A stretch of 64,000 nt of DNA from Cladocopium goreaui. Taxonomy: Eukaryota; Sar; Dinophyceae; Suessiales; Symbiodiniaceae. Below, in pieces: positions 13,401 through 61,176 of this stretch (positions are counted from its first letter, which is position 1; every line of letters starts with the position of its first letter). The DNA lies in contig CAMXCT020003402.1 in the NCBI GenBank assembly GCA_947184155.2, positions 124,001-188,000 on the forward strand. The letters run 5' to 3'. The position numbers and the translations under genes were made by a program. The notes under the pieces were generated by a model. The model ran no database searches. It saw nothing but the letters and a program-made list of their open reading frames with translations, and was not told where the DNA came from.

Positions 13401-16400
13401 GTTTGCCATAACTAGATTACAAGAGTCTTAAGAGGAATAGAGGGTACCTCCAACTAACAGTTTTGCATCACCCTGGGCCTGGAACTGGTAGGACTAATTA
13501 TGTTAGTTTCTGAATGGCGGGTAAGATCCAGCATATTGCATTAGTATATTTCCCATTGTGAATAGGTTTTGTGGTGAGGAGATCCACATGTTACATGTTT
13601 CTTTTAAGGGATGACCGTGACCACCCCCTTCCTGGGTGAGTCACTCAGATCTTCCCAAGCAGGCACCAACTGGACAGATGTGGACGTGGAGGTATCAGCA
13701 CGTAGCAGACCAAGATACAAACCTGTTGTTTCCAATGGCCACTCAGTAGCTGGAGTTCGTTGCTTCCAATTATTCAGCGCAATTCTTCAGTCAGAATCCC
13801 CTTTGTAATTTTGCAGATGTTCGAAGAATTTGCGTAGTGTTTGTACTGCTATACCTCTGTCTTTCGTGGGTTATAGCATGCTCCGCCCTCTTTGAAGCTA
13901 GAAACGAGGTTTCCCTTGAAGCCAAGGGGCATGTATTCCAGTGCCTCCCAAGGCTTTGAAGGACCAACATCAGGAAAGTTTACGCCTCTACAGCCGTTTG
14001 GTCCGGAGACTTAATGGCTCAGAAGGGGCTCAGTGACCAATGTAACCATCTCAATTTCAGCATCCCCTACTTGATGGTAAATTCCGTGGTATACCAGGTC
14101 TAAGCTTTTTTTTTTTGTGTTACAGCTGGTTGACCCATCCATTATCCACCTGTATCCCAGTTCTGGGGATTGCAAGACTAAGACATCACCCATTTACATC
14201 ACATTACATCCATTTATCATTTATCGGTTTCCATTGTTTTCCGGTTGAATCCCTACATTTTTTGCTGGCAAAACCACCGGAATGTCCTGGTAAACACCAT
14301 ATCGTGACATGGATGAGAGCTACCATGGAGGGATCGTATTGTGCCCAAGGCCACCAGACGGTCCTCAGTCTGTTGGAGGAAGGCAAAAAGCGAAGTCGCA
14401 AGGCGACGCGGGAGGGACCTGAGTTCGTTGGGTTTTTGTCAGGCAAGTTGTCTTTTTTATTTACTAATATTATTTACTATTGTTTGCGTTTAATTTACTA
14501 TTATCTATTCTGAATTTACTATTGTTTGTTCTTATTTTACTATTATATGCTATTATCTATTCTGAATTTGCTATTGTTTATTCTTAATTGACTATTATCT
14601 ATTCTTAATCGGCTATTGTATTACTATTAATTACTATGTTCTATTATTCTCTTGTTTATGCATCTAGTCTTGTGTATTTGCTTCTTTATCTACATGTTAT
14701 TTTTGATGTGTTGCCTTGCTTCTGCACAATTTAGATCTTCAGGTATGACGCTAGTCTAGCTGGTAGATTGGAGTCATACCTGAATATCTAAATTGTGCGC
14801 AGGGATTGGAAGTATGTTTGAATCCTGTGTTCCTCTTTGCCGGTTTAGTAATGAAAATAGCTCTACAACCAAACTAACATCACAGGAATTATACCTAAGA
14901 ATAATGGACACATTGCTGCCAACTAGTTATACATATATATATAGTGCATATATATATATTGTTTGATTATTGTTCCATCACCAAGAAAGTTGATTTTTTT
15001 GGTGGTGAAGTCAAGCAGCAAGCGCTTCTTGTTTTTGTTGTGGAAGCGACCTAGCCTCCAGTAAACGACTAAGAATGTAATAGCTATGGATTCACCATTT
15101 TTCAATGGGGAAATCGTCTATAGATTGGCATTCTCCCATAGCTATGTTGAATCACGAGGGAATTGCTGTTTGCTGGGCCAGAGGCGTGTTGAGCATCAGC
15201 CCTGGAAAATCCTGGAAATCACATTGACATGATGAAAATACCCCGGCTGGGGACAACAGGCTCGCTATGTGGGTCTTTGCGCCAGGGTGCGACGCTAAAC
15301 ACAGATCTGTCTGCAGCTACAGTTTTCAGCCTCTCATCTCTGGTAGGTTTTATGCTTCATCTTGTCAGGGACTTGACAAGAGCATGTCAACCTCCCTGAT
15401 AGCAACGACATTTTGCTCGATGTTAAGTTGTACCCATCCCCAATCATCCCCAATCATCCCCTCATCCCATGCCCCAATCATCCCACTTCGCCATGTGAGG
15501 TTCTTCGCTATACCTTCTTCAACACCGGTGGCAAGTTGGATCCTTGAATTCTCCAGGATCCAGCAAGTTGGTCGATGGGCAAACCCACTGCATTCACAAC
15601 CAACCCTTGGGATCTCCCAGTCATCCACTGCCAAGAGGACCACTGAATGAAGAAAGAAAACATAGTTTGGGAAAAACAACTAAATACATGTAACACGAAT
15701 ATGATGAATATGCACAAATAACATTCAGTATCATTCAACAACAATATCTATATCTATATCTACGTCTTTATATATATATATACATACGCTCCATTTTAAA
15801 CATCACGTCATCACCAAAAGGGACACGGCTCCCGGTTTTTCATCTTTCGACCAAGGCCTCAAGGATATTGTCTCCAGGCCTGGATCGGTCATAAACCACC
15901 CACGACTGGGGGATGGTAACCATAGCACCATATATAGCACCTATAAAAATGGTGATGACTGGGGGATGGTGTATGAAATTGTTTTACCCACATTATATGT
16001 TTACCGTACTATACTGTACTATATACCATAAACTTCCAGCTACCGATCACAGGGTGCAGAAAAGGGACCTAGTCACCGGGTGTACCTCAATTGGATCTGC
16101 ATCCCAGTTCGGAAGTTGTCAGCATATAATCAAGCCAAGTTAGAAGGGATATACCCAGCTATACCCAGCTATACACTTGCGGACGCGCTTGCAAACTCTC
16201 CTAGACTTGGTTGAAGGGACAAATACCGGACCCACCAGCAAATTCTGACATGAAGAACCACGCTTTCCTATAAATGTTCTCTTTAATCAATCCAACTTTT
16301 GCATTTTTTGTTGACATTATTGACGTTAATTTATTGAAAACAACACTAATTTGGTTGATAGTAAGTCAATGGTTGCCTATCTTTGGTTAAACCAATAAAT

Positions 16401-16810
16401 TGTTCAATCCATGTTTAAATTCTTTTGTGTTGGTGACCTTCTGGTAAACCTTCACATAGACCTGGAGAAGCCACGATTTGTAGATCACTTCGGAAAACCA
16501 TGGGATTTTCCACATCTATGTTATCTGTTACCCTCTGGTAAACAGCCATATAACTATGGAAAATCACCATCGTGCTATTTTCATGGGTAAATCCACTAGA
16601 AATCGACTGGGCCATGGCTTCAATAGCTCTATATTCTATGTTTACCAGGCCGGTTAGCCATTCTTAGGGGCACCTGGAGGCTGCTCGGGTTTCGCTGCTC
16701 GAATCCCCAGTGGTCAGGTGACGGATGACGGGCTCAGTGCCATGTGGACACTGACGGCCTCGTCGGAGGTGGTGGCTGCGGGAGCGCTGAGTGCCTCGGT
16801 GGTTTCCACC
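10496..16810 (+). CDS. GALC: Galactocerebrosidase-like glycosidase, exons before the viral insertion
   Basis: Exons: 10496-10531 (VDAILTISTLHE); about 10877-10915 (ATKQGQRASSP); 11445-11495 (DAPEIPQPAPFPLPFQE); 11878-11991 (EFDAVELHRSPPFFADQGGT and on to HQIR, matching the family APxFADQxGxFE stretch); 13609-13635 (MTVTTPFL); 13663-13691 (TNWTDVDVE, the family G-D-x-N-W-T segment); about 15260-15292 (ARYVGLCARVR); and about 16660-16810 (DDGLSAMWTLTASSEVV). The 13635/13663 join shares a split glycine codon. These segments lead through the C-terminal lectin-like domain in family order. A candidate exon at about 14300-14440 (EGPEFVGFLS) is uncertain. Conserved exons between 11991 and 13609 were not found. 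Confidence 0.75.
10688..10791. repeat. Fold-back MITE family A, copy 1
   Basis: Ends TACCCTCTGGTAATTTAACA and TTAGTTTACCAGAGGGTA form an inverted repeat of about 27 bp. The interior has paired AAAATGG words. Intronic, non-coding. Confidence 0.85.
12814..12923. repeat. Fold-back MITE family A, copy 2
   Basis: Same TACCCTCTGGTAAA...TTTACCAGAGGGTA termini and CATAGCTATTGAAAATG arm as the copy at 10688, about 110 bp. A degenerate third copy lies at about 15080-15160. Confidence 0.85.
14724..14798. ncRNA. Near-perfect 75-nt hairpin (26-bp arms), possible small-RNA precursor or young fold-back element
   Basis: Left arm 14724-14749 begins GCACAATTTAGATC. Right arm 14773-14798 is its reverse complement with one mismatch, and the loop is 23 nt. 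The shape and arm length fit a miRNA-type precursor, but a tiny MITE would look the same. It lies in an intron and no second copy was noticed in the window. Confidence 0.4.
16529..16649. repeat. Fold-back MITE family A, copy 4 (degenerate)
   Basis: Begins TACCCTCTGGTAAACAGCCA and ends CTATGTTTACCAGG. The inner arms have diverged. It lies just upstream of the last GALC-like exon before the viral element. Confidence 0.7.
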
Positions 16811-16924
16811 ATGGGATGGGATGAATTGGGGCGGGTTACTGTACCCCCAGTTGGATGAATGGAATATATCCCCACTTATTTAAGTGGGATTATGGGAATC
16901 ACACACATACACACACACACATAT

Positions 16925-16955
<31 letters not shown>

Positions 16956-17760
16956 AATATATGGATCAAAAACCACTTACTAAGTGGGAAGCAATGATCT
17001 GGGTAAATGGTAAATTATAACGACCTCACTGCGACCGAACCCTGGAATGATGGTTCGGAGAGGGGGAATTATCCCAATATAGCCAAACTTTTCAGGTGAG
17101 TGAAATCTTACAATTTAATGGATTATTCTGGGATATCTGATATCTTAATCATTTACGATGATAGCCATTATTCAACCACTAACAACAGAGCCCCCAAAAC
17201 ATTATCTAATTGGCAGCAAAGGTGGGTTTCTACAAGATGGGGCCCCCAAACGATAGCAAAGTTGGTTTAGTTCACTCGCTGAATTCAATGCTTTGTGGTA
17301 GATCTATCAACCTATGGGGTTTATCAGCCAACTCACTCGGGGAATAGTAACTTAACCACTATGGGAATAACATGGCCATGGGGACATAGATGGGGAAACA
17401 TATGAGAATATATTTCAAGGGTCCTTGTCGAAGCAAGAACCTTCAAGTGAGAGGTCTCATCCTTGAATATGTATCGCAAACTATGGAGAGCGATATGGTG
17501 AACTTGAGGTGAAGCCAAAACGTTTTCTTGATCTCACCAGCCATATGTGGATTTCAGTCTGTGTGAAGCTTACTTAAATTAAAGCATCGGGAATTCGCAG
17601 ATCAGCCGAATCAGAAAGGCTGTTTGGTACCACTCCAAATTGGGAAACGCTAGTGGTTCCCACGAGACAAACAGAGCGATGCCAAAACAGTAACAAGAAA
17701 TGGTCAAGAGTAGTCTCGGGCAGCGGGTGACCCAATCAATCACAAACACAAGGCTGTGGA
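16811..17760. other. Intron DNA between the GALC-like exon and the viral element
   Basis: No coding segment is supported. It contains CA and TA dinucleotide runs near 16905-16960. This is the host left flank of the viral insertion; no target-site duplication with the right flank was visible by eye. Confidence 0.5.
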
Positions 17761-18090
17761 AATGGTGGGAAAAAATAGGTCAGGTGGGAGGCTGTTATGT
17801 TCTGTTCAATCTTGTAATCTGAAATGTTTGACTGTTTCTTTTTGGTTATATTGCTATATATATGTATATATATATATGTTTTAGGTTGTTGTAATAATGT
17901 TTGGTTTCAATGAGGGTAGGTTTTGTTGACGGTGTTTTGCCTGTTATGTTTTTTTATGTTCTTGTTCAATGTTTCTTCCTTCCCTTTGATGTTTTATGTG
18001 TTGTATGTTCTGTTTTTTGTTTGTCGCTAACTTTTCTGGGGCTTTCTGTTTGAATGTGGTTAGGATTTGTTGAGGTTGTTGTGATTTAAC
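17761..18090 (+). repeat. Left terminal inverted repeat of the PLV
   Basis: It starts AATGGTGGGAAAAAATAGGT and includes the shared block AAATGTTTGACTGTTTCTTT. Degenerate internal units (GGGTAGGTTTTGTTGA, GTTAGGATTTGTTGAGG) follow. The reverse complement of 27625-27965 matches along its length with scattered changes and small gaps. About 20 outer bases present at the other three termini (GGACAAGASAGGTTGGAGG) appear deleted here. Confidence 0.85.
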
Positions 18091-18417
18091 CATCTGGATA
18101 TGAGGGAAATGTTGCGTTAAGGTAGTCTATGATTTCTTGGTGTTTTATTCGTATGTAGCACCGACATAGGAAGCACTCAACAGTTCAATTGTAACATCCG
18201 TAGTGTTTGAAAAATCCGTCAGTCTTAAGTATAGGTTGCTGTTCAACCCCGCTTGAACTGGATAAATGGAATTAGGTATGGTGATTTCGTGGATGTATAG
18301 TTTGGTGTCGTTCCCGCATTCTTGACTTTCAGGTAAATAGATTTCAAAATCACTACTACCGTTGGAGTTCTGGGTTCGGTGGTGGCTGTCTATGTATATC
18401 TTTTTAAATCTACTCAT
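18083..18417 (-). pseudogene. Penton (minor capsid)-like protein, N-terminal fragment
   Basis: The 90-residue frame starts at 18417 (MSRFKKIYIDSHHRT) and ends at 18145. The opening Y-I-D-S-x-x-R-T followed by S-S-D-F-x-I-x-L-P-E and then I-x-x-I-T-I-P-x-S matches, from family knowledge, the N-terminus of Polinton/PLV penton (minor capsid) proteins, which are several times longer. After the stop, a frame-shifted stretch stays open to about 18083 and ends where the left terminal repeat begins. This looks like a gene cut off by the repeat, with the rest lost. It is divergent from the lipase-like gene, with a 73-bp AT-rich gap. Alternative: an unrelated short virion protein. Confidence 0.65.
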
Positions 18418-18490
18418 TTTTTATGATATAATAACTTTAGAAAATTATTTTTTATTCTATACATTATTATATATGCTTCAAAAAAGGTGA
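18418..18490. promoter_or_regulatory. Divergent AT-rich promoter region (penton-like / lipase-like)
   Basis: The gap between two divergent start codons is about 85% A+T, with TTATGATATAATAA and CATTATTATATATGC words. It lacks the box found upstream of right-arm genes, so it may represent the late-class leader. Confidence 0.45.
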
Positions 18491-19174
18491 ATGGATGATA
18501 TGAAAACACAGGGACGACTACAAAGAATAAATCCCTTTAAAGAGATTGACGGTAAAGAATACAACAAGAAACACTACAACAAACAGAAGGAATTGTTGGA
18601 GAAATTCAGTAAGGAGATACAACAGGGAAACAAATACTTGGAGGAATTCAGCAACATCAACGACGAGACGGGACTGAAGAGAGCATACAATAACAGAACA
18701 GATTTAGGACTATACCACCACCCAGAGAATAAAACCCTTTACATAGCGGGGACGAAAGATTTTCCGAGAGACATCTTGGACGACACACTCATACCTTTTC
18801 ATATGGTTCATAGGTCAAAGCGGTATAAGACCGCAAACGACTTCATCAGAAACAACATTGATAATGTTGATACAATCGTCAGTCATTCCTTGGGTTCAGC
18901 AACAACGATGAAACTGAACCAAGACTATAACAAAAGATTTACCACCAGAACCTACGGAACACCAACCGTAAGTTTTAATGACAACACTAACAGTAAGAAC
19001 ACGAGGTTCAGGGCAGTAGGCGACCCAGTCAGTATGTTTGACAGAGGTGTGGATATAACAGTCAATAAGAACAGTTATAATCCTTTATACAATCACGGCT
19101 TTCACGCCGTCCATTTTGGAGATATGGGGAAGTCAGAAAAGAATGTGGCAGAACCAATCAACAAGATAATGTAA
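18491..19174 (+). CDS. Lipase-like alpha/beta-hydrolase
   Basis: A 227-residue protein of class-3 lipase type. A nucleophile elbow IVSHSLGSA places the catalytic serine at residue 133 (S-x-S-x-G rather than the usual G-x-S-x-G). GDPVSMFD supplies a candidate acid at residue 178, and GFHAVHFG a candidate histidine at 205 or 208. A polar, Lys-rich N-terminus of about 60 residues precedes the fold. No signal peptide is evident. It probably acts on lipid esters, perhaps during entry or exit through host membranes (inference). Lipase-like genes are reported in some Polinton-like viruses. The frame is intact and lies 24 bp upstream of a small interrupted frame on the same strand. An in-frame ATG three codons later (MKTQGR) could also start it. 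Confidence 0.75.
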   Translation: MDDMKTQGRLQRINPFKEIDGKEYNKKHYNKQKELLEKFSKEIQQGNKYLEEFSNINDETGLKRAYNNRTDLGLYHHPENKTLYIAGTKDFPRDILDDTLIPFHMVHRSKRYKTANDFIRNNIDNVDTIVSHSLGSATTMKLNQDYNKRFTTRTYGTPTVSFNDNTNSKNTRFRAVGDPVSMFDRGVDITVNKNSYNPLYNHGFHAVHFGDMGKSEKNVAEPINKIM

Positions 19175-19198
19175 TTTTATTTATATAAGTCATATTAT

Positions 19199-19429
19199 AT
19201 GGAAGACATTGTAAGGGAATACTTGAAGAACAACAGACAGGAAATGAATAAGTTGAAAAACGAGAATACCAAAGAGAAAAAACATCTAACATAGAATGAA
19301 TTCAAGAAGGTCATAGAGAGTGGAAAAGACATAAAGAACAACGAAAATAAACCTATAGAAAACAAACCCCAAAACAAAGGGAAGAAAACCAAAAATACAT
19401 TTAAAAAATATAACTTTGATATAACTTAA
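19199..19429 (+). pseudogene. Small Lys/Asn-rich frame interrupted by TAG
   Basis: From ATG at 19199 a 31-residue frame (MEDIVREYLKNNRQE...) reaches a TAG at 19292-19294. The same frame then stays open for 44 more codons of identical composition (NEFKKVIESGKD...) to TAA at 19427. The matching composition on both sides suggests one gene of about 75 residues with a nonsense change, or readthrough. No family recognised. Confidence 0.45.
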
Positions 19430-19462
19430 TTTAATATAACCTAATCACCAAAAAAAATCTGA

Positions 19463-19522
19463 AATAAGTTTTCAAAAGAAAACTTATTAAAGTAAATTTT
19501 ATTGATTATATCAATAAAATTT
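19463..19522. terminator. Two tandem AT-rich hairpins before the capsid gene
   Basis: Hairpin 1: arms 19463-19473 (AATAAGTTTTC) and 19478-19488 with a 4-nt loop. Hairpin 2: arms 19494-19505 (AAATTTTATTGA) and 19511-19522 with a 5-nt loop. Both are perfect. They lie between the interrupted small frame and the capsid ATG at 19545, and may mark the 3' end of the upstream transcript or shape the capsid leader. Confidence 0.55.
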
Positions 19523-19544
19523 TCTATATAGAATATATACAAGT

Positions 19545-20945
19545 ATGGAAGCATTAGAAACTACAGATGTTCTCAATGAAAATGTCCTTCGGTATAGACT
19601 AAAAAGTGGAGCGTCCTACATTAGAGACAAACGCATTAAAACATTCTACCCTTCTTCGGTTTCTACTTACTCATCCAACTCAAACAGTGCCATCCGCTTT
19701 AACCTAACCGGTGGAGCAAACGAATGGATAAATCTGCGAAGTCTTTTGATAGGTTTTACCCTCATCAATGCCGACAATGACGGAACAAAAGAGTTAAGAC
19801 CTGCCTATAAACCATCTTCATTTTTTCAACGAATGCGAGTGATGGCGGGTTCAAATGTTATTGCTGAAATTCCTGACTTAAACCGCTATGAAGCAATGAT
19901 GGATATTTTACAAGATGATGGTTCAAGAAACTATACTGACAATCTTGGTTTTGGTGAGACCTTTTACAATGAAGGAAATAGATTTTTGACATATACGCAG
20001 TTGGCAACGAACCCAGGTTCAAACACAGTTCAGAATGTCATTGACCAAGCCAAACCTGACAATTTCGGTGGATTTAAAAACAAAAAGACTGTATATTACC
20101 GACCTTCTTGTCCCTTCTTCAATGTGTCAAACTTCATTCCTTTGTCATACTGTCCGATTGTCATTGAACTAACTTTGGTCAGTGATGCTAATGAACCCCT
20201 CGTTAATTTAAGTGGTGATTTCACCACAGGGAATACTTCATTCTTATGGAACATAGAGCAACCCATCATCACTTGTGATATTCACCGACTTGATGATGGT
20301 TTATTTGCGGGGTATGCTGAAATTTTGGAAAAGCAATCTTTACCTATAACCTTCAACAGTGTTTCCGTCCAAACCCAAACAACAAGTAGAAGCACCGACA
20401 TCTTCACGACAATAGTTAGAAATGTCAGTAAAGCAGACAACATCTTCATATCTTTCCATTCAAATTTTGGTTATAAGGGCGGTTTCAAAGAAGTGTTGAA
20501 ACCTCATAACCTTCTTTATCATCCCCTTTCGTGGGAAAGCGGAACATCAATTGCTCAAAGATACTATGAAAATATTGATTTGTCCTTTCAGTTGAGTATT
20601 GGTAATACCGTCATACCCGAAATGCCAACGATGGGGGTTGCTGACAACTATAAGCATCTACAAGAAACACGAAACAATCACGTTTCAATCAAACCTCATA
20701 TGTATGGGACGAATTCCTTTTTAGCGGGGTTCAACCTGAAGAAACTCAACAGTGCCAATTACACTGGACTGAATTTGAAGAACAATTCAAATATGGTTGT
20801 CCGTGTAAAGCCATTGTATGGAACAGACCTATATATAACAGACAACGGAACTGATACTGGACTGATGCCTGACAAAATGTATATCGTTATTGAACACGAA
20901 TGTATCTTGGAGATAAAAGCCCAATCTGCCATTTTCTATGACTAA
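19545..20945 (+). CDS. MCP: Major capsid protein, double jelly-roll (PLV type)
   Basis: This 466-residue protein forms the virion shell hexons. Features that fit PLV/Polinton capsid proteins are: an N-terminal strand region with YPSSVSTYSSNSNSAIRFNL and NEWINLRSLLIGF; the FFQRMRVMAGSNVIAEI turn at about residues 92-108, typical of the first jelly roll; a central acidic and aromatic linker with PIVIELTLV near residue 205; and a C-terminal strand ending MYIVIEHECILEIKAQSAIFYD. Length matches the family (about 450-600). The gene is uninterrupted, unlike most neighbours. Its leader holds CTATATAGAATATATAC close to the ATG. It converges on the structural gene at 20993. Fold assignment rests on recalled family patterns, so a structure prediction would settle it. 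Confidence 0.82.
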   Translation: MEALETTDVLNENVLRYRLKSGASYIRDKRIKTFYPSSVSTYSSNSNSAIRFNLTGGANEWINLRSLLIGFTLINADNDGTKELRPAYKPSSFFQRMRVMAGSNVIAEIPDLNRYEAMMDILQDDGSRNYTDNLGFGETFYNEGNRFLTYTQLATNPGSNTVQNVIDQAKPDNFGGFKNKKTVYYRPSCPFFNVSNFIPLSYCPIVIELTLVSDANEPLVNLSGDFTTGNTSFLWNIEQPIITCDIHRLDDGLFAGYAEILEKQSLPITFNSVSVQTQTTSRSTDIFTTIVRNVSKADNIFISFHSNFGYKGGFKEVLKPHNLLYHPLSWESGTSIAQRYYENIDLSFQLSIGNTVIPEMPTMGVADNYKHLQETRNNHVSIKPHMYGTNSFLAGFNLKKLNSANYTGLNLKNNSNMVVRVKPLYGTDLYITDNGTDTGLMPDKMYIVIEHECILEIKAQSAIFYD

Positions 20946-20959
20946 AAACGATAGTGGAT

Positions 20960-20994
20960 AATTAATAAAATTATAATGAATAATTTTATTAATT
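20960..20994. terminator. Bidirectional hairpin between convergent genes
   Basis: Perfect 14-bp arms (AATTAATAAAATTA and its complement) with a 7-nt loop. It starts 15 bp after the capsid stop and overlaps the TAA of the gene on the other strand. Symmetry and position suit a shared transcript end. Confidence 0.7.
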
Positions 20995-22319
20995 ATTTCG
21001 ATTTAAATTTTGGATAGATGATTGACTTGTAAAGTTCCTTCGCTTCCTTTAGATGTTGTTTCTTATCCTCTCCCTTGCTTGATTTCCATTTACCATATAC
21101 CTCTTGAAACCTTTGATAGTCTCCTGTGTCTATGCTTTTGCTGTTGTTCATCTCTTCAAACTTCTCTCTTATCACTTGTATTCCTACCTTGCTTGGCGAT
21201 ATTGCTTTGTTCATTGTTGGTTTCCTGACTGGTGCTTTTGATGAAGATGACGCCCCTGTTTCTTCCTGTGCTGTCTCTGCTTCATCTACATTGGGTGTCT
21301 TGTTGTCTTTGGGGATGTTGATTGTTGCTCCTAATGCTTGTGGTTGGGGTTGCTTTCCTCTTACTCTTCTTGCTTTGGGTGGTTTGGTGGTTGTGGATGG
21401 GTCTTCCTGAAATTCTCTCTTCTCCTGCGTTGGCGGTTTGGGTTTCTGCCTCTTTGCTTTGGACTGTCTCACGCTTAAGGGTTTCCTCTTTTCTGCTGTT
21501 GGTATTGTGGTTGTGTCGCGAAAGCCTCGCGAGGCTTCTGCCGAAGCGTCCATTGGTTCATTCACATCGGGCACTACATCCACGTTCATCTTTGATTTTT
21601 CCTCCTTTAACCTCTTTTGGTGATTTACCTTTTTGACTTGTTTGTTGATTAGTTTTTGTGTTGGTTTTATCTTGGACGGTTTCTCTTCCTCGTCTTCGTC
21701 GGGTATGATGGCGTCTGTCAGTTTTGATGCTATTAGTCCTCCTATTGACCCTCCCTTTGCTGTTCCTCCTGCTGTGGCGACTGCTTTGATGAGGTTTGGA
21801 TGATTTAAGGAATTTCTTTAAGATGCTTCTACTGCTTGAAGGCGGTTCTTCGTCTTCTTGTATCCCTGCCGATGCTGTTGCTCCAACGGCGTCGTATGCC
21901 CCTTTGTTTGCCATATAGTGGTCTTGTGAATGACTTAAGTTTGCTTGTTCTGCTACTCTCCTTTCGTTCTCTTCCCTCAACTCTGCCTCTCTGTCAAAGG
22001 ACATCTCAAAGTCGCTGATGGCGTCGTCCCTCAAGTCTGTCATATCTTCAAAGTCAAGGTTGGGTGTTTCTTCTTCCTTCCTCGCGGTCGCTTCCTCTGC
22101 CATCTTTTTGAAGTTCATTTGCTGTAAGTCTGCTGGGTGGATGTTGTTTGTGTTCAGTGCTTGACCCTGCGGACTTTCGTGAAAATACCAAGCGTTCCTA
22201 TCAAAGATTTTTCTGATGTCATTGGTTTTGAACTTTTCCCTGTTTATTTCCTTGATGAGTTCTGCGTAAGTGGGTATTCGTGTCAATCCCTGTTTTGCGT
22301 TGATTACTTCTGCTGTCAT
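20993..22319 (-). pseudogene. Structural-type hypothetical protein split by a frameshift
   Basis: Two overlapping frames, 22319-21558 (253 codons) and 21589-20993 (198 codons), look like one gene. The second frame stays open upstream of its first ATG to about 21796, and there encodes a Gly/Ala-rich stretch (AVATAGGTAKGGSIGGLIAS) resembling a membrane or packing segment. In the first frame the same bases give only Arg/Ser/Thr-rich noise. One extra base in the AAA at 21795-21797 (minus-strand sense) would explain it. The N-terminal part is acidic and helical (PTYAELIKEINREKF). The C-terminal part is Lys/Pro-rich and ends in a helix (LKEAKELYKSIIYPKFKSK). Position beside the capsid gene suggests a virion protein. 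No family recognised. Confidence 0.6.
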
Positions 22320-22349
22320 TGCTATATATTAATAGTTGAGATTTTTATA

Positions 22350-22832
22350 TTAATCTTGTGTATCGCCTCTCAACCACTGTTTATATTCATCAATTCTCTT
22401 TTTCATATTCTGGACGTTCGCCCCGTAATCTTCCAATCTGTGATTTTTCCTCACCTCCCTCAACCTTGTCATTTCGTTCTGTAGCATCTCATTCTCTTCC
22501 TTCATCCCCTGCTTTACTTGTAAGACCTTGTAGTCGTGCTCGGTGTTGTGATATTCAAGAAGGCGCTTTAGGTAAAGATGATGGTTGTGAGTTGGCATCC
22601 TTGCCGTGTTGCTGTCGTTTTGGTAGTAGTGGTCATAACTTCTATACACTTTTTTTCTTCTGTCTGGCATTTCGGGCGTTCCGCTCCGGTAGTTGGCACT
22701 TTTGTTTGAATGGACGGTTTGTCTTCTGCTGATGTCGCGCATAGCACGCGAGGCTACTGCCGTAGCGTCCTTGCGGACGTTTTCGTAGATGTCTGTTTTG
22801 TTGAGTTCCGTTTTCTGTTCCTTGTTGTTCAT
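22350..22832 (-). CDS. Basic coiled-coil hypothetical protein
   Basis: 160 residues. A polar N-terminal half with many Arg/Tyr (PEMPDRRKKVYRSYDHYYQN) is followed by a helical, heptad-rich half (about residues 85-150) with QVKQGMKEENEMLQNEMTRL. It lies 30 bp upstream of the split structural gene on the same strand and 16 bp downstream of the next, so the three form one minus-strand cluster. The leader TATTATATATAAAAATG is AT-rich. Possibly a virion scaffold or tape-like component (inference); no family recognised. Confidence 0.6.
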   Translation of the reverse strand: MNNKEQKTELNKTDIYENVRKDATAVASRAMRDISRRQTVHSNKSANYRSGTPEMPDRRKKVYRSYDHYYQNDSNTARMPTHNHHLYLKRLLEYHNTEHDYKVLQVKQGMKEENEMLQNEMTRLREVRKNHRLEDYGANVQNMKKRIDEYKQWLRGDTQD

Positions 22833-22848
22833 TTTTATATATAATACT

Positions 22849-23193
22849 TTATAAATTGTTTGATGCTAAAGATTTCAATTTCTCTCTCGTCGCTTTGTTC
22901 TTTTCCTCTTTGGCTTTGTTGTAGATGTCTCTGGCGGACATCGCACTTTGTAGTTCTTCCTTTATTTGTTTTACAAGGTCGCTTTTGAATGCCTCTGGGT
23001 CAAAAGGTGGTTTTGCCCTTGACGGTCTTACCCTTTTGGGCTTCGGCGCTGGTTGTGGTTTCTCTTCAACGGATGGTTCAATTATTTCTTCTGGTTTCTC
23101 CTCTTCCTTCGGTGCTTCTTCCTGTATTGGCTCTGGTATTGTTTCTTCCTTTGGTTCTTCATTATCAATCTCTTTTACGACTACCTCTGTCAT
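22849..23193 (-). CDS. Acidic/Pro-rich protein with C-terminal helix
   Basis: 114 residues: an N-terminal 50 residues of repeated Glu-Pro (EEPKEETIPEPIQEE), a basic hinge (PKPKRVRPSRAKPPFDPEAF), then a charged helix (SDLVKQIKEELQSAMSARDI). The first gene of the minus-strand structural cluster; the start codon is preceded by ATAATATTAATATATG. Low-complexity termini like this are common in small virion proteins. No family recognised. Confidence 0.6.
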   Translation of the reverse strand: MTEVVVKEIDNEEPKEETIPEPIQEEAPKEEEKPEEIIEPSVEEKPQPAPKPKRVRPSRAKPPFDPEAFKSDLVKQIKEELQSAMSARDIYNKAKEEKNKATREKLKSLASNNL

Positions 23194-23249
23194 ATATTAA
23201 TATTATAGATGTTTTTTCCCCACCTGCCAGGTGAGGGTTGTTAGATTTT

Positions 23250-23372
23250 ATGTCAGTTGCCTCCTCCTTCTCCTCCTCCTCCTCCTTCTCCTCCTCCTCC
23301 TCGTCCTCCGCCTCCTCCTGCCTCGTCCTCCTCTCCTCCTCCTCCTCTCGTTGTCCTCCTCGTCCTCCTGCT
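23250..23372. repeat. CCT/CTC microsatellite
   Basis: A near-pure pyrimidine tract of CTC, CCT and CTTCTC units on the + strand. It abuts the 40-bp array and is GC-rich, unlike the viral genes around it. Confidence 0.9.
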
Positions 23373-23395
23373 CAACTGCGACTCGCGATCCACAG

Positions 23396-23730
23396 TGTTC
23401 GCTGTCGGACCTCAACCACGACCATCCACGCCCAGTGTTCCCGGACCTCATCCACGACCATCCACGCCCAGTGTTCCCTGCCGGACCTCAACCACGACCA
23501 TCCACGCCCAGTGTTCCCTGCCGGACCTCAACCACGACCATCCACGCCCAGCGTTCCCTGCCGGACCTCAACCACGACCATCCACGCCCAGTGTTCCCTG
23601 CCGGACCTCAACCACGACCATCCACGCCCAGTGTTCCCTGCCGGACCTCAACCACGACCATCCGCGCCCAGTGTTCCCTGCCGGACCTCAACCACGAGTA
23701 TCCGCGCCAAGTGTTCCCTGCCGGACCTCA
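23396..23730. repeat. 40-bp minisatellite, about eight copies
   Basis: The unit contains TCCACGCCCAGTGTTCCCTG plus CCGGACCTCAACCACGACCA. Copies are nearly identical, with variants at the ends. The period is not a multiple of three, so all three frames stay open and give the same peptide in rotation; this argues against a coding origin. The GC-rich sequence resembles host rather than viral DNA. Confidence 0.92.
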
Positions 23731-23734
23731 TGTA

Positions 23735-24460
23735 GGAATGTCAGATAGACTGCCAGATAGAATGCCAGATAGAATGTCAGATAGGATGCCAGATAGAATG
23801 CCAGATAGAATGCCAGAAAGAATGCCAGAAAGAATGCCAGATAGAATGCCAGATAGAATGTCAGATAGGATGCCAGATAGAATGCCAGATAGAATGCCAG
23901 AAAGAATGCCAGAAAGAATGCCAGATAGACTTGCCAGATAGAATGTCAGATAGAATGTCAGATATAATGCCAGATAGAATGCCAACATATATGCCAGAAT
24001 GTATGTCAGATAGAATGCCAAAATATATGTCAGATATAATGCCAGATAGAATGCCAGAATATATGCCAGAATATATGCCAGAATCAGATAGAATGCCAGA
24101 ATATATGTCAGATATAATGCCAGATAGAATGCCAACATATATGCCAGAATATATGTCAGATAGAATGCCAAAATATATGTCAGATATAATGCCAGATAGA
24201 ATGCCAGAATATATGCCAGAATATATGTCAGATAGAATTGCCAGAATATATGTCAGAATAAATGACAGGTAGAATGCCAGAATATATGTCAGATGAAATG
24301 TCAGAAAATATGTCAGATAGAATGCCAGATAGACTGCCAGATAGAATGCCAGGTGGAATGTCAGGATATATGCCAGATAGAATGCCAGAATATATGCCAG
24401 AATATATGTCAGATAGGATGTCAGAATATACTAAATATATGTCCAAATATACGTCCTGAC
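23735..24460. repeat. 12-bp minisatellite, about 60 units
   Basis: Unit ATGCCAGATAGA (Met-Pro-Asp-Arg in one frame) with dispersed variants ATGTCAGATAGA, ATGCCAGAAAGA and ATGCCAGAATAT. Larger blocks repeat, for example about 23975-24060 against about 24100-24210. The array fills the gap between the structural cluster and the integrase. Confidence 0.92.
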
Positions 24461-24494
24461 ATGTCATGGTGGGGATCACACGAAGTAGAGTAAT

Positions 24495-25437
24495 TTATAC
24501 TTTCAAAATCTCGTGTCTCAAATACGGTTTGTTCAATCCTTCCAGTTTGAAGGTTCTGTTTCCAACATCATCGTATTCTATCTTGACGATTTTGTAGGAT
24601 TGATTGCTCCATTTTGGGTTATACTCCTTCCTCTCGGTGTAGTTGTCTTTTTTCTTCTCAAAGACCTTGACCATATCATTCACTTTGACCTCTGGATATT
24701 TGCGAGTGTTCTTTTCCCTCCTTGTCAAATTCACCCTGACGTCCATATGGTTCTTGTCGTCGTGGGCATCCTTGGGTTTCATTTTCGTGGATGAATGGAC
24801 GGTGTCATTGTATTTATCCAATGCTTTGGACAACAAAACAGTCCAACTACCACGATTAAACCTGACCCTGTCGTGCATCAGATTTTTCATTGTCCTTATG
24901 AAACGCTCCACAACATTAGCGTGAGTTAGGGTGACGACGTGAGTGATGCCTTCTTTCTCAAAAAAAGTCTTTTACCCCTGCTTGGAAGGCACGGTCATTA
25001 TCACTATAAACGGACATCGGAAAACCCATTTTGTTGAAACTCTCTTTCAGTGCCGACAGGGCATTTGTTCCTGACTTTTCTTTCATAGGGACAACATTAG
25101 CCAACTTGCTGAAGATGTCAATAACAACCATCGCATATCTTGGTTCATCATTCTTGATTGGAATTTTTGTCTCTGGTTCTTTGGTAAGGGGTTTCATATC
25201 CGTTATGTCAATCTGGAAATCAAACCTTGCGAAGGGTGCGGTGTAGGAGTTTGAACCCCTGTATTTTCTAATCTGTTTGTTGGGTTGTTTCCTCATAAAG
25301 TTTTCCACATCCACCCTGTTGATGGACTGGTCTTGTTCCTTGGCTTTCTTGAGGGTCTCATTGATTGAACCGAAGCCCGTTTCAAGATTGTAATAGACAT
25401 TGCTTATTATGTCATCTCTTGATAGTCTCCTTGCCAT
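24495..25437 (-). pseudogene. Retroviral-type (DDE) integrase, broken by one base
   Basis: The N-terminal frame 25437-24958 (159 codons) holds FDFQIDITDM (first Asp, about residue 77), YAMVVIDIFSKLANVVPMK (core strand) and VYSDNDRAF (second Asp, 146). The continuation to 24495 holds ANVVERFIRTMKNLM with the catalytic Glu. It ends in an SH3-like DNA-binding tail (VNDMVKVFEKKKDNY ... YNPKWSNQSYKIVKIEY). This is the integrase type of Polintons and PLVs, which joins element ends to host DNA. A run of seven T (minus sense) at 24960-24966 shifts the frame into a stop right after DFF; six would keep it open. Whether this is a real mutation, a sequencing slip or programmed slippage cannot be decided here. 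The missing bases do not touch the three catalytic residues. Confidence 0.9.
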
Positions 25438-25482
25438 ATATTATAATATTAGATTTTAAAAATTATCAGCAATGAAAAATAT

Positions 25483-25514
25483 ACTTAAAGAAAAAATACC
25501 TATATATAGTAAGA
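25483..25514 (+). promoter_or_regulatory. Right-arm promoter box, copy 1
   Basis: ACTTAAAGAAAAAATAC followed by CTATATATAGTAAGA, ending 9 bp before the ATG at 25524. Nearly the same 32 bases precede the ATGs at 26003 and 26687, and none precede the structural genes. Confidence 0.8.
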
Positions 25515-25523
25515 ATAGGTAAG

Positions 25524-25951
25524 ATGACTAAATTTGACTGTGGATGTCGTATTATGAGCGAGTGTATCACCTTAAACAATGGTGATTACAAAAACCTAAT
25601 TGGAATTATTTGTTAAAAACCTTCGTGAATGTTTGTGGAAAGTGTGGCAAGAAACAAATGAAATTCCAACAAATGGAAAACAAACTTTTGGAAATGGAAA
25701 AGCAACGAATGGAAATGTTTTTGGAAAATGAGGATGAAGAACACGACACATACTTTGACCTGACAGAGTTGAAGGAACATCTCAAAACCCTCCCGCCCAA
25801 TGAAAGACACAAAGTGAAGGATTTTGAGAGGTTAAGAAACCTCCGCAATGGACAAGACCCCAACGAAGGAATGAGTGAAATAGATACGGTTATAAAGGAA
25901 CTGGAAGAGGAGGAAAGGGAAAATAAAAACCAACCCGAACCCGAAAACTGA
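25524..25951 (+). pseudogene. Zinc-ribbon-like acidic protein split by a frameshift
   Basis: From ATG 25524 a 30-codon frame (MTKFDCGCRIMSEC...) stops at 25614. An overlapping frame, open across the stop, continues VCGKCGKKQMKFQQMENKLL to TGA at 25951. The first part has C-x-C, the second C-x-x-C, together a plausible zinc ribbon followed by a Met/Glu-rich coiled coil and an acidic tail. Stop and shift fall at TTGTTAAAAAC, a short A-run. It is the first gene after the promoter box and divergent from the integrase. No named family. Confidence 0.6.
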
Positions 25952-25968
25952 ACGAGCCCCCAAAAACT

Positions 25969-26000
25969 ACTTAAAGAAAAATTACCTATATATAGTAAGA
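25969..26000 (+). promoter_or_regulatory. Right-arm promoter box, copy 2
   Basis: ACTTAAAGAAAAATTAC then CTATATATAGTAAGA, ending 2 bp before the ATG at 26003. It differs from copy 1 at about one position. Such a short leader suggests that the AGTAAGA end lies at or near the transcript start. Confidence 0.8.
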
Positions 26001-26002
26001 GG

Positions 26003-26242
26003 ATGCTATTTACTTATAAAAACCGTGGATGTTGTAAAAAAGAAATGACTAACCTAAAGGTTTTACTAAACAATATTTTCCCCGCTGGAATTTGTGATGA
26101 GATATGTGATTACAACCTTCACTGTTCAAAATGTAAAGACTTAAACGATAGGGAGCGTAGATACATAGATTTCAATTATCATTTTGACTATTTTAATGAT
26201 AAACAAACTGACGAGAGTAGAAAAGACAATCTATTTTTTTAA
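26003..26242 (+). CDS. Small Cys-containing protein
   Basis: 79 residues with paired cysteines GCCKKEM, GICDEICDYNLHCSKCKDL. The spacing C-x3-C-x5-C-x2-C is compatible with a zinc-binding knuckle. The start is fixed by the promoter box. The C-terminal half is rich in aromatic and acidic residues. The next small frame begins 8 bp downstream. Function unknown; a regulator is one possibility. Confidence 0.55.
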   Translation: MLFTYKNRGCCKKEMTNLKVLLNNIFPAGICDEICDYNLHCSKCKDLNDRERRYIDFNYHFDYFNDKQTDESRKDNLFF

Positions 26243-26249
26243 AACAAGG

Positions 26250-26306
26250 ATGGAAAAAATCACATTTATTTATCCAACACGCACCGAACAAACACTCGGC
26301 AAATGA
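26250..26306 (+). CDS. 18-residue upstream frame overlapping the next gene
   Basis: MEKITFIYPTRTEQTLGK ends at TGA 26304-26306, overlapping the next ATG at 26303 (ATGA). The overlap suggests translational coupling or a remnant of a longer N-terminus. It is too short to judge as a protein. Confidence 0.3.
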   Translation: MEKITFIYPTRTEQTLGK

Positions 26307-26656
26307 AAAGAGAAATTGATGTTTTAATGGATACATTCAAACTCAAGCAAGAATTCAAACACGACAAACTGTTCTTAATGGCGATTAAGTCTTTTGTGAA
26401 AAGGGAGTGGGAAACTACCTATCACCTCCTTAAAGACTTTCACGACCTTACATATATGAAGTATTGTAAAAACAAGCGTGAGTGGTGGTTTCCTCAAAAC
26501 GATTGGACTCATACATTCAGAAATAGGGAGTTTCAGGTAAATGACATTTTGAAAATATTTTTGTGTGAATACACCGAAGAACTGTTCAACGGTTATGAGA
26601 AATATTTGAACATAGAAGAAATAAAAGAACGCCTACAAAAAGTGGTAAATACTTAA
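26303..26656 (+). CDS. Hypothetical protein, 117 residues
   Basis: A helical, aromatic-rich protein (REWETTYHLLKDFHDLTYMK, KNKREWWFPQNDWTHTF). No cysteine cluster, signal peptide or membrane segment. It probably shares the transcript begun at 25969. The stop lies just before the third promoter box. No family recognised. Confidence 0.55.
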   Translation: MKREIDVLMDTFKLKQEFKHDKLFLMAIKSFVKREWETTYHLLKDFHDLTYMKYCKNKREWWFPQNDWTHTFRNREFQVNDILKIFLCEYTEELFNGYEKYLNIEEIKERLQKVVNT

Positions 26657-26682
26657 AGAAAAAATAACTATATATAGTAAGA
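26651..26682 (+). promoter_or_regulatory. Right-arm promoter box, copy 3
   Basis: ACTTAAAGAAAAAATAA then CTATATATAGTAAGA, ending 4 bp before the ATG at 26687. It overlaps the last codons of the preceding gene. Confidence 0.8.
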
Positions 26683-26686
26683 GAAA

Positions 26687-26940
26687 ATGAGTAAAGCAAA
26701 AAATCAGGTTATAGATAGAAATAATATCGGTATATATGCTGACTTCGGTAGTGAAAGCGAGGACGATGACTGGGAAAGAAAAGCAATAGAAAAAAAAATG
26801 AAGAGATTAGAGACTTTGTAAAATGTCATCCCTTACCACCACGTGAAGACTTTGATTTTTGGAAATTTGTGCTTGATAGAGTTGTTAGTGAAAGTAATGT
26901 TGAACGGTTTAACATATTTATACACAAACTAACAACTTGA
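26687..26940 (+). pseudogene. Small acidic protein broken in a run of nine A
   Basis: The first frame (MSKAKNQVIDRNNIGIYADF, then SESEDDDWERKAIE) stops at 26819. A second frame, open from the A9 run at 26790-26798, continues EEIRDFVKCHPLPPREDFDF to TGA at 26938. The second part is compositionally protein-like and directly abuts the run, so a one-base slip in A9 is the simplest reading. The promoter box fixes the start. Total about 84 codons. No family recognised. Confidence 0.55.
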
Positions 26941-26953
26941 CATCATCAAACGA

Positions 26954-27157
26954 ATGTATGAAAACCTCACCAATAAAGATATAATCATACAATGCGGAAA
27001 AGAATTGAATAGAAGAGGTGGGTGTTTTTGTATGAGTGTTAATTTGACCCTTTTATCAATAGCGATGGATGAACTAAACGATACAAACAATCCCTGCTTA
27101 TCACAAATGAGAGTAATTGAACACTGGTGGGATGGAATAGGTGAATGGAAAGCATAA
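26954..27157 (+). CDS. WDGIG-family small protein, copy 1
   Basis: 67 residues. It shares MYENL...RRGG, the LTLLS helix and the C-terminal WWDGIG with the protein at 62669-62917 in the second element (IYENI, HHRGG, YTLLS, CWDGIG), so the two are homologous though diverged. The frame is open upstream of the ATG to the previous gene. It is followed by a hairpin. Conservation in both elements implies a useful role for the element, for example in replication or host interaction (inference). No known family recognised. Confidence 0.65.
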   Translation: MYENLTNKDIIIQCGKELNRRGGCFCMSVNLTLLSIAMDELNDTNNPCLSQMRVIEHWWDGIGEWKA

Positions 27158-27165
27158 AATATTAA

Positions 27166-27196
27166 TTCATAATATCTTAACAAAATATATTATGAA
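27166..27196 (+). terminator. Conserved 3' hairpin after the WDGIG gene
   Basis: Arms TTCATAATAT (27166-27175) and ATATTATGAA (27187-27196), 11-nt loop, 8 bp after the stop. The second element keeps the structure at about 62931-62960 (TCATAGTAT ... ATATTATGA), with one arm change giving a G-T pair. Confidence 0.65.
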
Positions 27197-27252
27197 GTAA
27201 TCCACCCTAAAAACCCCTTAAAGACATAACCCCTTAAACTTGTAGAGGTATA
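27197..27252 (+). promoter_or_regulatory. Conserved leader of the zinc-finger gene
   Basis: GTAATCCACCCTAAAAACCC, CTTAAAGACATAACC and CCTTAAACTTGTAGAGGTAT lead directly into ATG 27253. The second element carries the same block with two substitutions (62961-63017). CTTAAA occurs twice and echoes the CTTAAAG start of the other box. Confidence 0.7.
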
Positions 27253-27612
27253 ATGACTGACAAAAAACAGTGTTCTAAATGTAAAGTCTTTCAACCGTTA
27301 AACTATTACAGAGATGAATGTAAGCAGTGTAAAAACTGTTTAGAAGCAAAGCAACGATACAGAGAGAAAAACAGGGACAAATTAAGACAGTATGCCATAC
27401 AGTATCATCAAAGAAGAAAGGAACAAACAACAGAGGAAAAGAAAGACACTAATGAATTGAAGACTGAATGTCCCGTGTGCGGAAGTATCATAAACAAATA
27501 TCAGGTCAAAAGGCACGAAGAAAGCATCAAGCATCAAACCAAACTGAAGGGAAAGGAAAAACCGAAAGTTGTGAGAAATGGAGATGATGAAACTGGAATG
27601 TTAGGCATATGA
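27253..27612 (+). CDS. Double zinc-finger protein, copy 1
   Basis: 119 residues. The N-terminal QCSKCKVFQPLNYYRDECKQ plus CKNC gives four Cys pairs of a zinc ribbon. A basic helix follows (residues about 35-70, KQRYREKNRDKLRQYAIQYH). Then a C2H2-like finger: CPVCGSIINKYQVKRHEESI with the second His in IKHQ. The architecture suggests nucleic-acid binding. The homologue at 63018-63323 is over 60% identical by eye in both fingers and shorter at the C-terminus. It is the last gene before the right terminal repeat. Confidence 0.75.
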   Translation: MTDKKQCSKCKVFQPLNYYRDECKQCKNCLEAKQRYREKNRDKLRQYAIQYHQRRKEQTTEEKKDTNELKTECPVCGSIINKYQVKRHEESIKHQTKLKGKEKPKVVRNGDDETGMLGI

Positions 27613-27624
27613 AATCTCAATCCA

Positions 27625-27965
27625 AACATAAAACCCCAACAGCCTAAACAAATCCTACCCCCATTCAATCCAAACATCAACAGTGAAAGTTAAGACCCTA
27701 TACCACCCCTAACAATGTCCCAGTAAATCATCAAAACCAAGGAACACACATTGAACAACAACATAAAAACCACAACAACCAAAACACCCTCAACAAAACC
27801 TACCCTCATCCAAACTAAACATTATTACATCAACCTCAACAAACATTTAGCAAGATAATCAAAAAGAAACAGTCAAACATTTAGATTTACAATATTGAAC
27901 AAAAACATAACAACCTCCCAGCCAACCTCCAACCTCTCTTGTCCTAGTTTCCCCCTTTCACCGTT
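27625..27965 (-). repeat. Right terminal inverted repeat of the PLV
   Basis: Read inward on the minus strand it begins AACGGTGAAAGGGGGAAACT, then GGACAAGAGAGGTTGGAGG. It is nearly identical for about 130 bp to the left terminus of the second element (61177 onward), closer than to its own partner at 17761. Confidence 0.88.
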
Positions 27966-28684
27966 TTTTTGTGGGAGATGGATTGCCAAATCCACGGCTA
28001 TTGTATCTATTACCAAACATGAAAGGGATATGGCCAACAAAAAATGCATTCAGACCACCTTTGTGACCCCTAATGTTGGTCACTTCTCATAAAACGTCTA
28101 TCTATCTATATGCAGGGATTGAAATTCACTGGGTTGATTTATGGGAAAATCTACGGTTGACACTTGAAACAATCATTTTTGACCTCAAAATTGTTAGCCT
28201 TCCTGCAGATAGGTTAAAAGCCATGGAACCCGATAAACCCAAGTTGCTAAAATATATGACTGACTGGACTGGCACATGAACCCACAAATCTGGGGACTCA
28301 ACCAATGAGATTCACCAACATTTGGTGGTTGGCTGTTGGGGTCTTCCTTGCATTTTGAAAATTTATTTCGCATTTGCAGTGGAATTAATTACATGATCAC
28401 CATGCAGGAGATGTCGCTGCGCTCATGTTGAGATGTGTCTGAAACCTTTGCTAAGAATCATCGCAGCCGTTTTGGGGTGAAAACCAGAGGGCCAAGGGGG
28501 CCAGAGGGTTAACGTTTCGATCCAGTGTCACATTGAATGAATGCCATTGACTGCCATTGAATGCCATTGTAGTTGTGTTGCGACTTCCATCTTTGTGTTT
28601 GACTTCTTTGGATCCCCTTTGTACCCTCCTCTTCTTGGCATTTTCAGTGGGAAACGGCCCTGGGTCTGAGGTGATGCCAGCAAG
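27966..28684. other. Host intron DNA right of the PLV
   Basis: No gene. Host-like sequence with an ATGCCATTG repeat near 28540-28570. It leads into the next GALC-like exon. Confidence 0.5.
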
Positions 28685-30235
28685 GAAAAGATTGCGCGCA
28701 AGGGGTGGCTTCAGCTGCGATTGGAGGCTCCCAATGGTGAAATTTGTATCCCAGGTGGGTGGGTTTTTTCACATACAGAACTGTTTCATAGTGTTTCCCA
28801 AAATGGGGTATCCCAGTCATCCCCTATCCCTAATCATCATGAATCATCCATTTTTAATCATGTTCATCGGATTTTCCATTCTGAACCATCCAGCATTTGA
28901 ATTAGCCCTGTGTCTGTCGGGTGCACCTGGGGGATGAACCATGGGGAAGTGACAAACGAAGGTCCACGTGTGTTTGTGAACTCCATCTTGGAGGTCAAAT
29001 ATGGTGCTCATATTCCTGACCTTTTGGGGTTCCATGTGGGTTTTCATTCCTTTCACATATGTTTGGACATGTTTGGACGCAGTTATTTTGGGTTGTGTTT
29101 AAAATTTAAACATGGTTGATACCTGCAAATAGCACATTTAAATCTAAATGGATAACATCCTGTTCCACGCACATTTTTGGATACAGTACACCCAAAAATC
29201 ATATCAGTTAGATCTATCATGTTGTAGATGAGGAAATATCATTAATTATATACCGATATAGTTGGGTATATGATATCCCCATTGTGTCCCATGCATAATT
29301 ATAGACAATAATTGTTTCCCATGAAATATCCGATAATATACACGAATTCAATCATTAATTCCCAACAGAAGCATCCTAATCCCAACGTTGATGGATGTTT
29401 CATGGTTAAATCTGCATTTTCATGGGTTAATTCCTATTCTTGATGGTCCATGAGTAAATTCCAGATATAGCCATCCAAAATGGAACTTCATATTAGGGGA
29501 TTACCCCATGTGTTATGGTTCAATACACCTTACCTCTGAACATAGCTATGACAATCATCGTGTAATAGGGTAATAGGTAAATCATCTATAGATGAGTCAT
29601 TTTTCATAGCTATGTTAGTTTGCTGGAGGGTATATATTCAATAGTCAATAGATTTCAGGTACCTAATATAAATTGGAGGTACCTTCCATATATAAGGCCT
29701 ATGTAAGGGGATATTCCCTCAACATATTGCTTTATAATGTACGGTATACCTCCTTTTTAGGACCCTGGAATTTTCGTTGATATATCCCCATTGTTTTTAT
29801 ATAATCCCTTGCCACAACATCCCCGGCCCACAGGTCAGCAAGGCCCGCATCCGCGCTCTCATCGACGGGGAGACGGTGAGCAACATCATTGACACAAGCC
29901 TCCCCATGGGACAGGCGTTGGGTATGTCCAGGTTGGGGTAAGTAGGTGGCGAACTGGTTTGAAACTTTATTTTAGTTAAAATTTTGCTGCTCAATAATCA
30001 TATGAGGAGGGGAGAGACAGAGAGACCGAGAGAAAATAGTTATATGATATGGTCCCATTTAGTTAAAGGTTTTTGGACTACTGGATCACTCATCAATGGT
30101 CCATAGAGAGTAGCCCATGATCCCCAGAGTTTGTCAAGAATGGGTTCGTTGGGGTTGAAGGTGGCCTTGAACTGCGGCTACCACAAGTGCCAGTTTGACA
30201 ATATCAAGGCCTGCGTTGGCAGTGGCGCCAGGAAT
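28685..30235 (+). CDS. GALC: Galactocerebrosidase-like glycosidase, exons after the viral insertion
   Basis: Exons: 28685-28736 (EKIARKGWLQLRLEAPN, matching the family K-K-W-Y-T-L-T-L strand); about 29834-29921 (ARIRALIDGETVSNIIDTSL); and about 30140-30235 (VALNCGYHKCQFDNIKACVG, matching the family F-A-Q-F-D-N-F end). They continue, on the same strand and in family order, the exon at about 16660-16810, so the PLV lies within one intron of this gene. Exact phases at 29834 and 30140 did not resolve cleanly, so those borders may be off by a few bases. Whether splicing still spans the 10-kb insert is unknown. Confidence 0.75.
29531..29632. repeat. Fold-back MITE family A, copy 5
   Basis: TACCTCTGAACATAGCTATG at the left, CATAGCTATGTTAGTTTGCT and GGAGGGTA at the right. 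Diverged but clearly the same family. Confidence 0.75.
29653..29773. repeat. Fold-back repeat family D, copy 1
   Basis: Starts TTTCAGGTACCTAATA and ends TTTTTAGGACCCTGGAA, with ATTGGAGGTACC and ATATAAGGCCTAT inside. Matches 38660-38781 and 45838-45963. Confidence 0.7.
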
Positions 30236-30659
30236 CGTAAGTCGTAAGTGGTGATCAAAACCCATAGAATCCATGCATTACTTTGGCATCTCCATGTATA
30301 TCCTATATAACGAAGTTTCTCATATTGTGTTTATTACTCACTGATTAGCTGAAGAGGCGTGATTTTGTGACTTGCGTGGCTCGAAGTGCCCATGACCAGG
30401 GCAGAATCACAGCGGGAAAGTCGTGTGCAGGTTGCCAAAGAATCATGGCACAAAGAAGTTTTGAAACCTCCCACATCTACAATCGAAGCACCCCAGAATC
30501 TGAAAACCCAAGCCGAGAGAGACCTTGCCCCAAAAGCTTTGTTACAGCTTTGTTTCAAGGTGTTTAGGAAGCGACAGATCGAACTTTACTATGGTTTTCA
30601 CACGTTTTCGCTAGGGTTTTGTATTGAAGGCTAACAAGACAACTTGCTTTGGTGCTTGG

Positions 30660-61025: not shown

Positions 61026-61176
61026 GTGACGACAGACCGACTGGAATCTTTCAAGGGATTTGGACGGATTTGGGATAGAAAATCCTGAAAGATCACCTGG
61101 AAATCATGGAATATCATATTCAAACCATGGTTTAGTACGGGAATGTATTTATTTTCCGGGGATGTAGGGGAAACAA

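Follow-up and report, generated by a model that had tools for sequence, protein, structure and literature searches.

An internally deleted, probable Maverick/Polinton-like provirus among the exons of a galactocerebrosidase-like gene of the dinoflagellate Cladocopium goreaui

The window analysed here is a stretch of 64,000 nucleotides from Cladocopium goreaui, a probable coral-symbiont-type alga (contig CAMXCT020003402.1, hereafter C3402, positions 124001-188000; coordinates without a contig name are those of the window). Among the exons of a host gene resembling galactocerebrosidase (GALC, family GH59), it holds a 10.2-kb element bounded by terminal inverted repeats (TIRs). We propose, with a probability of about 0.8, that this element is an internally deleted and probably immobile derivative of a ~20-kb Maverick/Polinton-like endogenous virus, which would have integrated once in a GALC intron and later been duplicated upstream. 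The best feature of the locus is the pairing of a long and a short form of one insertion, both beside the same exons in the assembly. Together with many short TIR-bounded relatives, this could make a single genome suitable for studying how proviruses decay, how genes tolerate them and whether they depend on helpers.

The host gene and the predicted intron

Four close GALC homologues (P0001 from Symbiodinium, P0003, P0005 and P0006) were used as tblastn queries and gave a single collinear series of exons on the + strand across the window. The first exon found lies outside the window, 18.4 kb ahead of it at C3402:105551, and the last one found is at 36953-37039, so that the gene (1-37039 in the window) is at least 55 kb long. 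Catalytic exon pieces joined from the six-frame list match PF02057 above cut-off (7e-16), which places a GH59 catalytic domain in the gene; the same pieces match PF17387 below cut-off (4e-4), and a longer exon chain matches galactocerebrosidase in the PDB (4.7e-24), the catalytic part alone being aligned. By sequence similarity, the GALC identity of the exons left of the element is certain. At least 74 protein homologues were found among 8000 scored candidates, the closest among the matches listed being Symbiodinium necroappetens galc (P0001) and Skav215341 (P0002). The lectin-domain exons adjoining the element have no Pfam and no PDB match on their own; they are identified as GALC because the four close homologues match them. 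A search of the genome (1.166 Gb, 6202 contigs) with PF02057, in which 9 candidates were scored, returned a single locus, a second GALC-like gene at G000:C5993:431951-435073 on the - strand. Absence of GALC from the window, which this result taken alone would imply, is rejected by the strong GALC match of the window exon chains.

The preliminary description of this DNA had the element flanked on either side by GALC-like exons that keep to one strand and to the order of the family, and its reading called for GALC similarity on either side and for contiguous flanks; all of this holds. The last blocks to the left lie at 13662 and 16727-16828, and those to the right at 29843, 30158, 32701, 34666, 36614 and 36953. 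When chained bits with P0005 and P0006 were compared with those of 100 dinucleotide shuffles, the exons right of the element reached 178.2 bits with P0005 (shuffle maximum 30.8) and 100.2 with P0006 (26.6), and the interval 27971-31400 gave chains of 61.6 and 64.0 bits where none of the 100 shuffles scored above 0. Chance resemblance of the exons is rejected by this control. The window is free of N and belongs to one contig of 570,865 bases.

The lectin-domain exons on both sides are collinear with P0005 and P0006. The left flanking exon, with predicted bounds 16667-16798 (+ strand), corresponds to residues 376-412 of P0006, aligned to 16727-16828 with an E-value of 0.048, and is followed by GT. 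Taken alone, the interval 14,500-17,776 gave one match with P0006 (28.1 bits, shuffle maximum 25.0) and none with P0005; what decides for the exon is its position in the collinear series. On the right, the flanking exon (EKIARKGWLQLRLEAPNG) is predicted to span 28685-28736 on the + strand; it follows an AG-G acceptor and was placed by eye against P0005 and P0006 between neighbouring blocks, tblastn giving no match to it. The next two exons (ARIRALIDGETV... and KVALNCGYHKCQFDNI, 29843-30205, + strand) were found by tblastn. The predicted intron thus bounded runs on the + strand from the GT at 16799 to 28684 and measures 11.9 kb (~1.7 kb without the element); its removal would bring GALSAS and EKIARKGWLQLRLE together in phase 0. 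For comparison, AGG acceptors account for 96.1% in C. goreaui (PMC9412976). The element did not make the intron: the predicted intron extends beyond the TIRs, by ~1.0 kb to the left and by ~0.7 kb to the right.

A deletion derivative and its longer upstream duplicate

The element spans ~17,777-27,974. Its TIRs share 75% identity over 319 columns (17777-18087 against the inverted 27631-27928), and its right end falls at 27,970-27,974; the flank from 27975 onwards is fully matched here and in the duplicate only. The left TIR is followed by the joint of an internal deletion (~18,142-18,155; TIR and joint, 17777-18142), as inverted identity and comparison with other copies indicate. At the joint lies a frame of 90 residues on the - strand (18145-18417), which we read, by a motif, as a truncated candidate minor capsid (penton) gene; it has no Pfam match, and its reading continues in the upstream duplicate. 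A candidate major capsid protein of 466 amino acids is encoded by an intact frame at 19545-20945 (+), and a candidate rve-type integrase at 24495-25437 (-) matches PF00665 (3e-5) and NF033577 (1.3e-8), both under the curated cut-offs, and changes frame near 24,955. The element has 42 listed open reading frames (ORFs) of at least 45 amino acids; among the 14 scanned with Pfam, neither an A32-like packaging ATPase nor a protein-primed PolB was found, an ATPase and a PolB candidate being present in the duplicate. The absence of the ATPase from the scanned frames is why we file the window copy as a deletion derivative and not as a complete member.

The duplicate lies ~70 kb upstream. C3402:71626-85739 matches window 18174-31341 at ~99% with breaks, and the two copies differ at 0 of 1306 capsid bases, 1 of 2259 bases in the next stretch (52 gap columns), 1 of 3463 in the right part, 10 of 3369 in the flank and 6 of 801 left of an assembly gap. 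It shares with the window copy the right junction and a GALC flank of 3.4 kb, with GALC exons at 84243 and 84558; the common junction means one insertion event. Virus-like sequence continues leftward to ~61.08 kb, and the whole duplicate, GALC 3' exons included, may be taken as C3402:61080-85739. Its candidate penton gene is interrupted by an insert of 1.23 kb. It also carries an A32-like ATPase (PF04665, 2.7e-10) and an S74 fibre chaperone (PF13884, 4.5e-10) and, with matches below cut-off, a methylase-like frame (PF00145, 3.1e-4) and a candidate PolB (PF03175, 3.2e-4). This candidate has putative PolB motifs.

The most serious alternative is that the duplicate is an artefact of assembly, one locus placed twice, the real intron then holding either the long or the short form. 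We consider it a real possibility with the odds somewhat against it: the near identity of the copies (down to no difference at all in the capsid stretch) and the 100-N gap beside a duplicate whose left TIR was not found speak for it, whereas the sequence fetched from 74005 to the end of the window has no N and the two forms differ by a 10-base repeat, the 1.23-kb insert, the deletion and the 6 bases left of the gap.

Copies in the genome and selection on the capsid candidate

At least 96 sequences in the genome match the capsid candidate (91 of 289 candidates scored), some of these rows being pieces of one gene. The whole query is spanned by 48 of the 96, and 43 of those 48 have no in-frame stop. 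Outside the genome, 39 homologues were found, the nearest cluster having 412 member sequences. Selection was measured on the best 30 of the 96 rows (protein matches), one of which has a stop, leaving 29: the ratio of non-synonymous to synonymous change (dN/dS) is 0.028 among these 29 other copies (median dS 0.12) and 0.079 between the window and those copies (median dS 0.15). The 466-residue frame is under selection in the family copies.

A comparison with 29 other copies locates the deletion. In 25 of them the match to the window ends at 18,142-18,181, where the window enters the TIR; the remaining 4 are uninformative on the joint, 3 ending earlier and 1 lying in a fetched stretch that ends first. 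A copy on contig C346 is collinear with the upstream duplicate across 2.95 kb (94.5% identity), and the part lost from the window copy therefore belongs to the family. The window copy is a deletion derivative, with its left half gone, its candidate penton cut to 90 residues and its integrase frame-shifted, and it is probably defective. Where the preliminary description saw a virus residing in a single host intron, an endogenous Polinton/Maverick-like element in one predicted GALC intron is borne out and an intact virus is not. That its place in the intron helps the element persist or be transcribed with the gene, as that description supposed, is conjectural. Its capsid and integrase genes need similar rewording: the integrase is an rve-type candidate in a broken frame with matches below cut-off, and the capsid protein is a candidate without a profile or PDB match.

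A proposed history of the insertion

We propose the following sequence. A ~20-kb Maverick/Polinton-like virus would have entered, in a single integration, one of the introns of a dinoflagellate GALC gene, and the insertion would have been tolerated as part of a sequence predicted to be spliced out. Later, a piece with the provirus and the following GALC exons may have been duplicated to a position ~70 kb upstream, while the provirus that stayed in the gene would have lost its left half but not its TIRs, the order of these two steps being conjectural. Copies in which selection acts on the capsid-candidate gene may have been the ones that spread the family. Shortened copies that keep both TIRs appear to be common and might be moved in trans.

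Several points weigh against this reading. (i), The left flanking exon has little weight by itself under the shuffle control, and the predicted junction leaves 9 residues between conserved blocks where P0005 and P0006 both have 11 (hand count), so that the true splice sites may lie a few codons away from those predicted. (ii), No target-site duplication was seen by eye at either the window element or the second, shorter element described below, the exact ends not being fixed. (iii), The 466-residue candidate has no profile, PDB or IMG/VR match; a profile search with it gave no named viral relatives, and an IMG/VR scan with the capsid alignment gave 40 pattern matches and 0 relatives. (iv), A dN/dS sample of best matches favours conserved copies, although silent change is still far above protein change. 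(v), The duplicate adjoins a 100-N gap (73905-74004) and is without a left TIR, so misassembly is possible. (vi), The larger PolB-candidate piece in the duplicate (P0173) has no Pfam, PHROG or PDB match. A search for an empty site also found none: the right flank is fully matched twice in the genome, both times beside an element, and the left flank was compared with the 80 kb upstream.

The insertion might instead have been tolerated in a decaying GALC gene that no longer works, which we regard as improbable. A second GALC-like gene is present on C5993, tblastn found no match in the GALC region for some homologue blocks, such as 317-375 and 449-479 of P0005, and near 11.87 kb an alignment passes through a stop that may mark a splice joint; however, most homologue blocks, the lectin blocks and EPWSGHY among them, are collinear across at least 55 kb.

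Relation to known systems

Published totals for C. goreaui (genes 713.6 Mb of 1.2 Gb, of which 91.5 Mb coding; PMC9412976, Table 1) imply, by our own arithmetic, that ~52% of the assembly is intron. Residence in an intron is therefore about what random insertion would give and is not very surprising. Three promoter-like sites of the element, each WACTTAAAGR followed by TATATATAG, lie at 25482, 25968 and 26650 (25476-26683, + strand; repeat family D8). The pattern was derived from the repeats themselves and counted without a shuffle control; it occurs 3 times in the element and 0 times both in the remaining 53.8 kb of the window and in 55 kb upstream outside the duplicate. The duplicate has 6 sites: those three, and at its left end another three, of which one falls within an open frame. 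As sequence, the motif hints that the element may have its own transcription. That introns are a favoured niche, into which the integrase or selection steers viruses that then ride on host transcription, is very unlikely: one clear intronic case and a capsid candidate on the strand of the host gene carry little weight with about half of the assembly intronic, and the promoter-like motifs of the element are absent from the nearby host sequence examined.

Our preferred reading, a deleted provirus of a Maverick/Polinton-like family, has several published parallels. The 'Dino group' of endogenous polinton-like viruses (PLVs) and Mavericks (Bellas et al. 2023, PMC10120064) also has dinoflagellate hosts and many copies; in Polarella glacialis alone, 2,535 capsid genes from elements of this type were detected. 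As described there, these elements are 15-30 kb long and often have TIRs, PolB and an rve integrase or tyrosine recombinase, a likeness of description; the window copy differs in being 10.2 kb and internally deleted, and introns as insertion sites are not treated in the sections of that account considered here. The EMALE virophages of Cafeteria (PMC8547959) are likewise integrated small DNA viruses that have their own promoter motifs and encode an rve integrase, for which the window element has a candidate, and 15 of their sites are reported in predicted host genes, 2 in introns and 13 in exons. They differ in their virophage capsid set, in belonging to another host group and in their target-site duplications, mostly of 3-5 bp, where none was seen here. 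Intronic virophage insertions are thus already in print (PMC8547959), and the present case adds a sound new one. OmPLV, from Oxyrrhis marina (PMC12721341), shares with our element and its duplicate a dinoflagellate host, TIRs, an A32 ATPase, PolB (a candidate in the duplicate), decayed copies and the lack of a visible target-site duplication, whereas it has a tyrosine recombinase in place of the rve integrase, a helicase-PolB fusion and a GC content much below that of its host. In Breviolum minutum, also of the Symbiodiniaceae, Maverick elements of the same kind were studied not as residents of genes but as repeats that are rich in 5-hydroxymethyluracil (5-hmU) and show enrichment at dinoTAD edges (PMC11071213).

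Short TIR-bounded relatives

A second element of 2.35 kb (61172-63518) has the same TIRs, as their comparison indicates, and the zinc-finger-like ORF of the longer element, a frame of 119 residues there (27253-27612, +; PHROG endonuclease VII, 0.0011) next to the right TIR (27631-27974). It has no WACTTAAAGR site. Between its left TIR and its viral right end, an NTPase-like frame (61849-62292) gives weak matches to AAA_33 (0.006) and RecA (7e-5) and may be captured host sequence. The right TIR has at least 41 matches in the genome (330 candidates, 40 scored), and facing TIR pairs spanning 3.1-6.8 kb were found on seven contigs (C740, C413, C3001, C5327, C90, C2968 and C1856).

It is tempting to speculate that the family is a layered system, in which full viruses with the selected capsid gene coexist with mini-proviruses of 2-10 kb, the window copy included, that keep the TIRs and depend on the full viruses to replicate, package or integrate, i.e. 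provirus satellites. We hold this to be doubtful at present. The NTPase-like frame of the 2.35-kb element hints that some mini-proviruses may contain genes of non-viral origin.

Other features of the window

The rest of the element comprises an ORF of 227 amino acids at 18491-19174 (+) with a lipase-like HSLGS stretch, whose weak lipase match (0.0061) is far under cut-off; four lysine/glutamate-rich ORFs at 20993-23193 (-) without confident family matches; and tandem arrays at 23231-24455, made of several repeat families with 40-bp and 12-bp units (families D1 and D3). In the flank to its right, a short dispersed repeat at 28840-28894 has matches on 15 other contigs. P0073, read from 28067-29116, has 3 member sequences, the longest contig measuring 13,967 bases; this right flank therefore exists in another, smaller assembly. 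Beyond the GALC gene, exons resembling an NAD-dependent epimerase were recognised by eye at 42400-45018.

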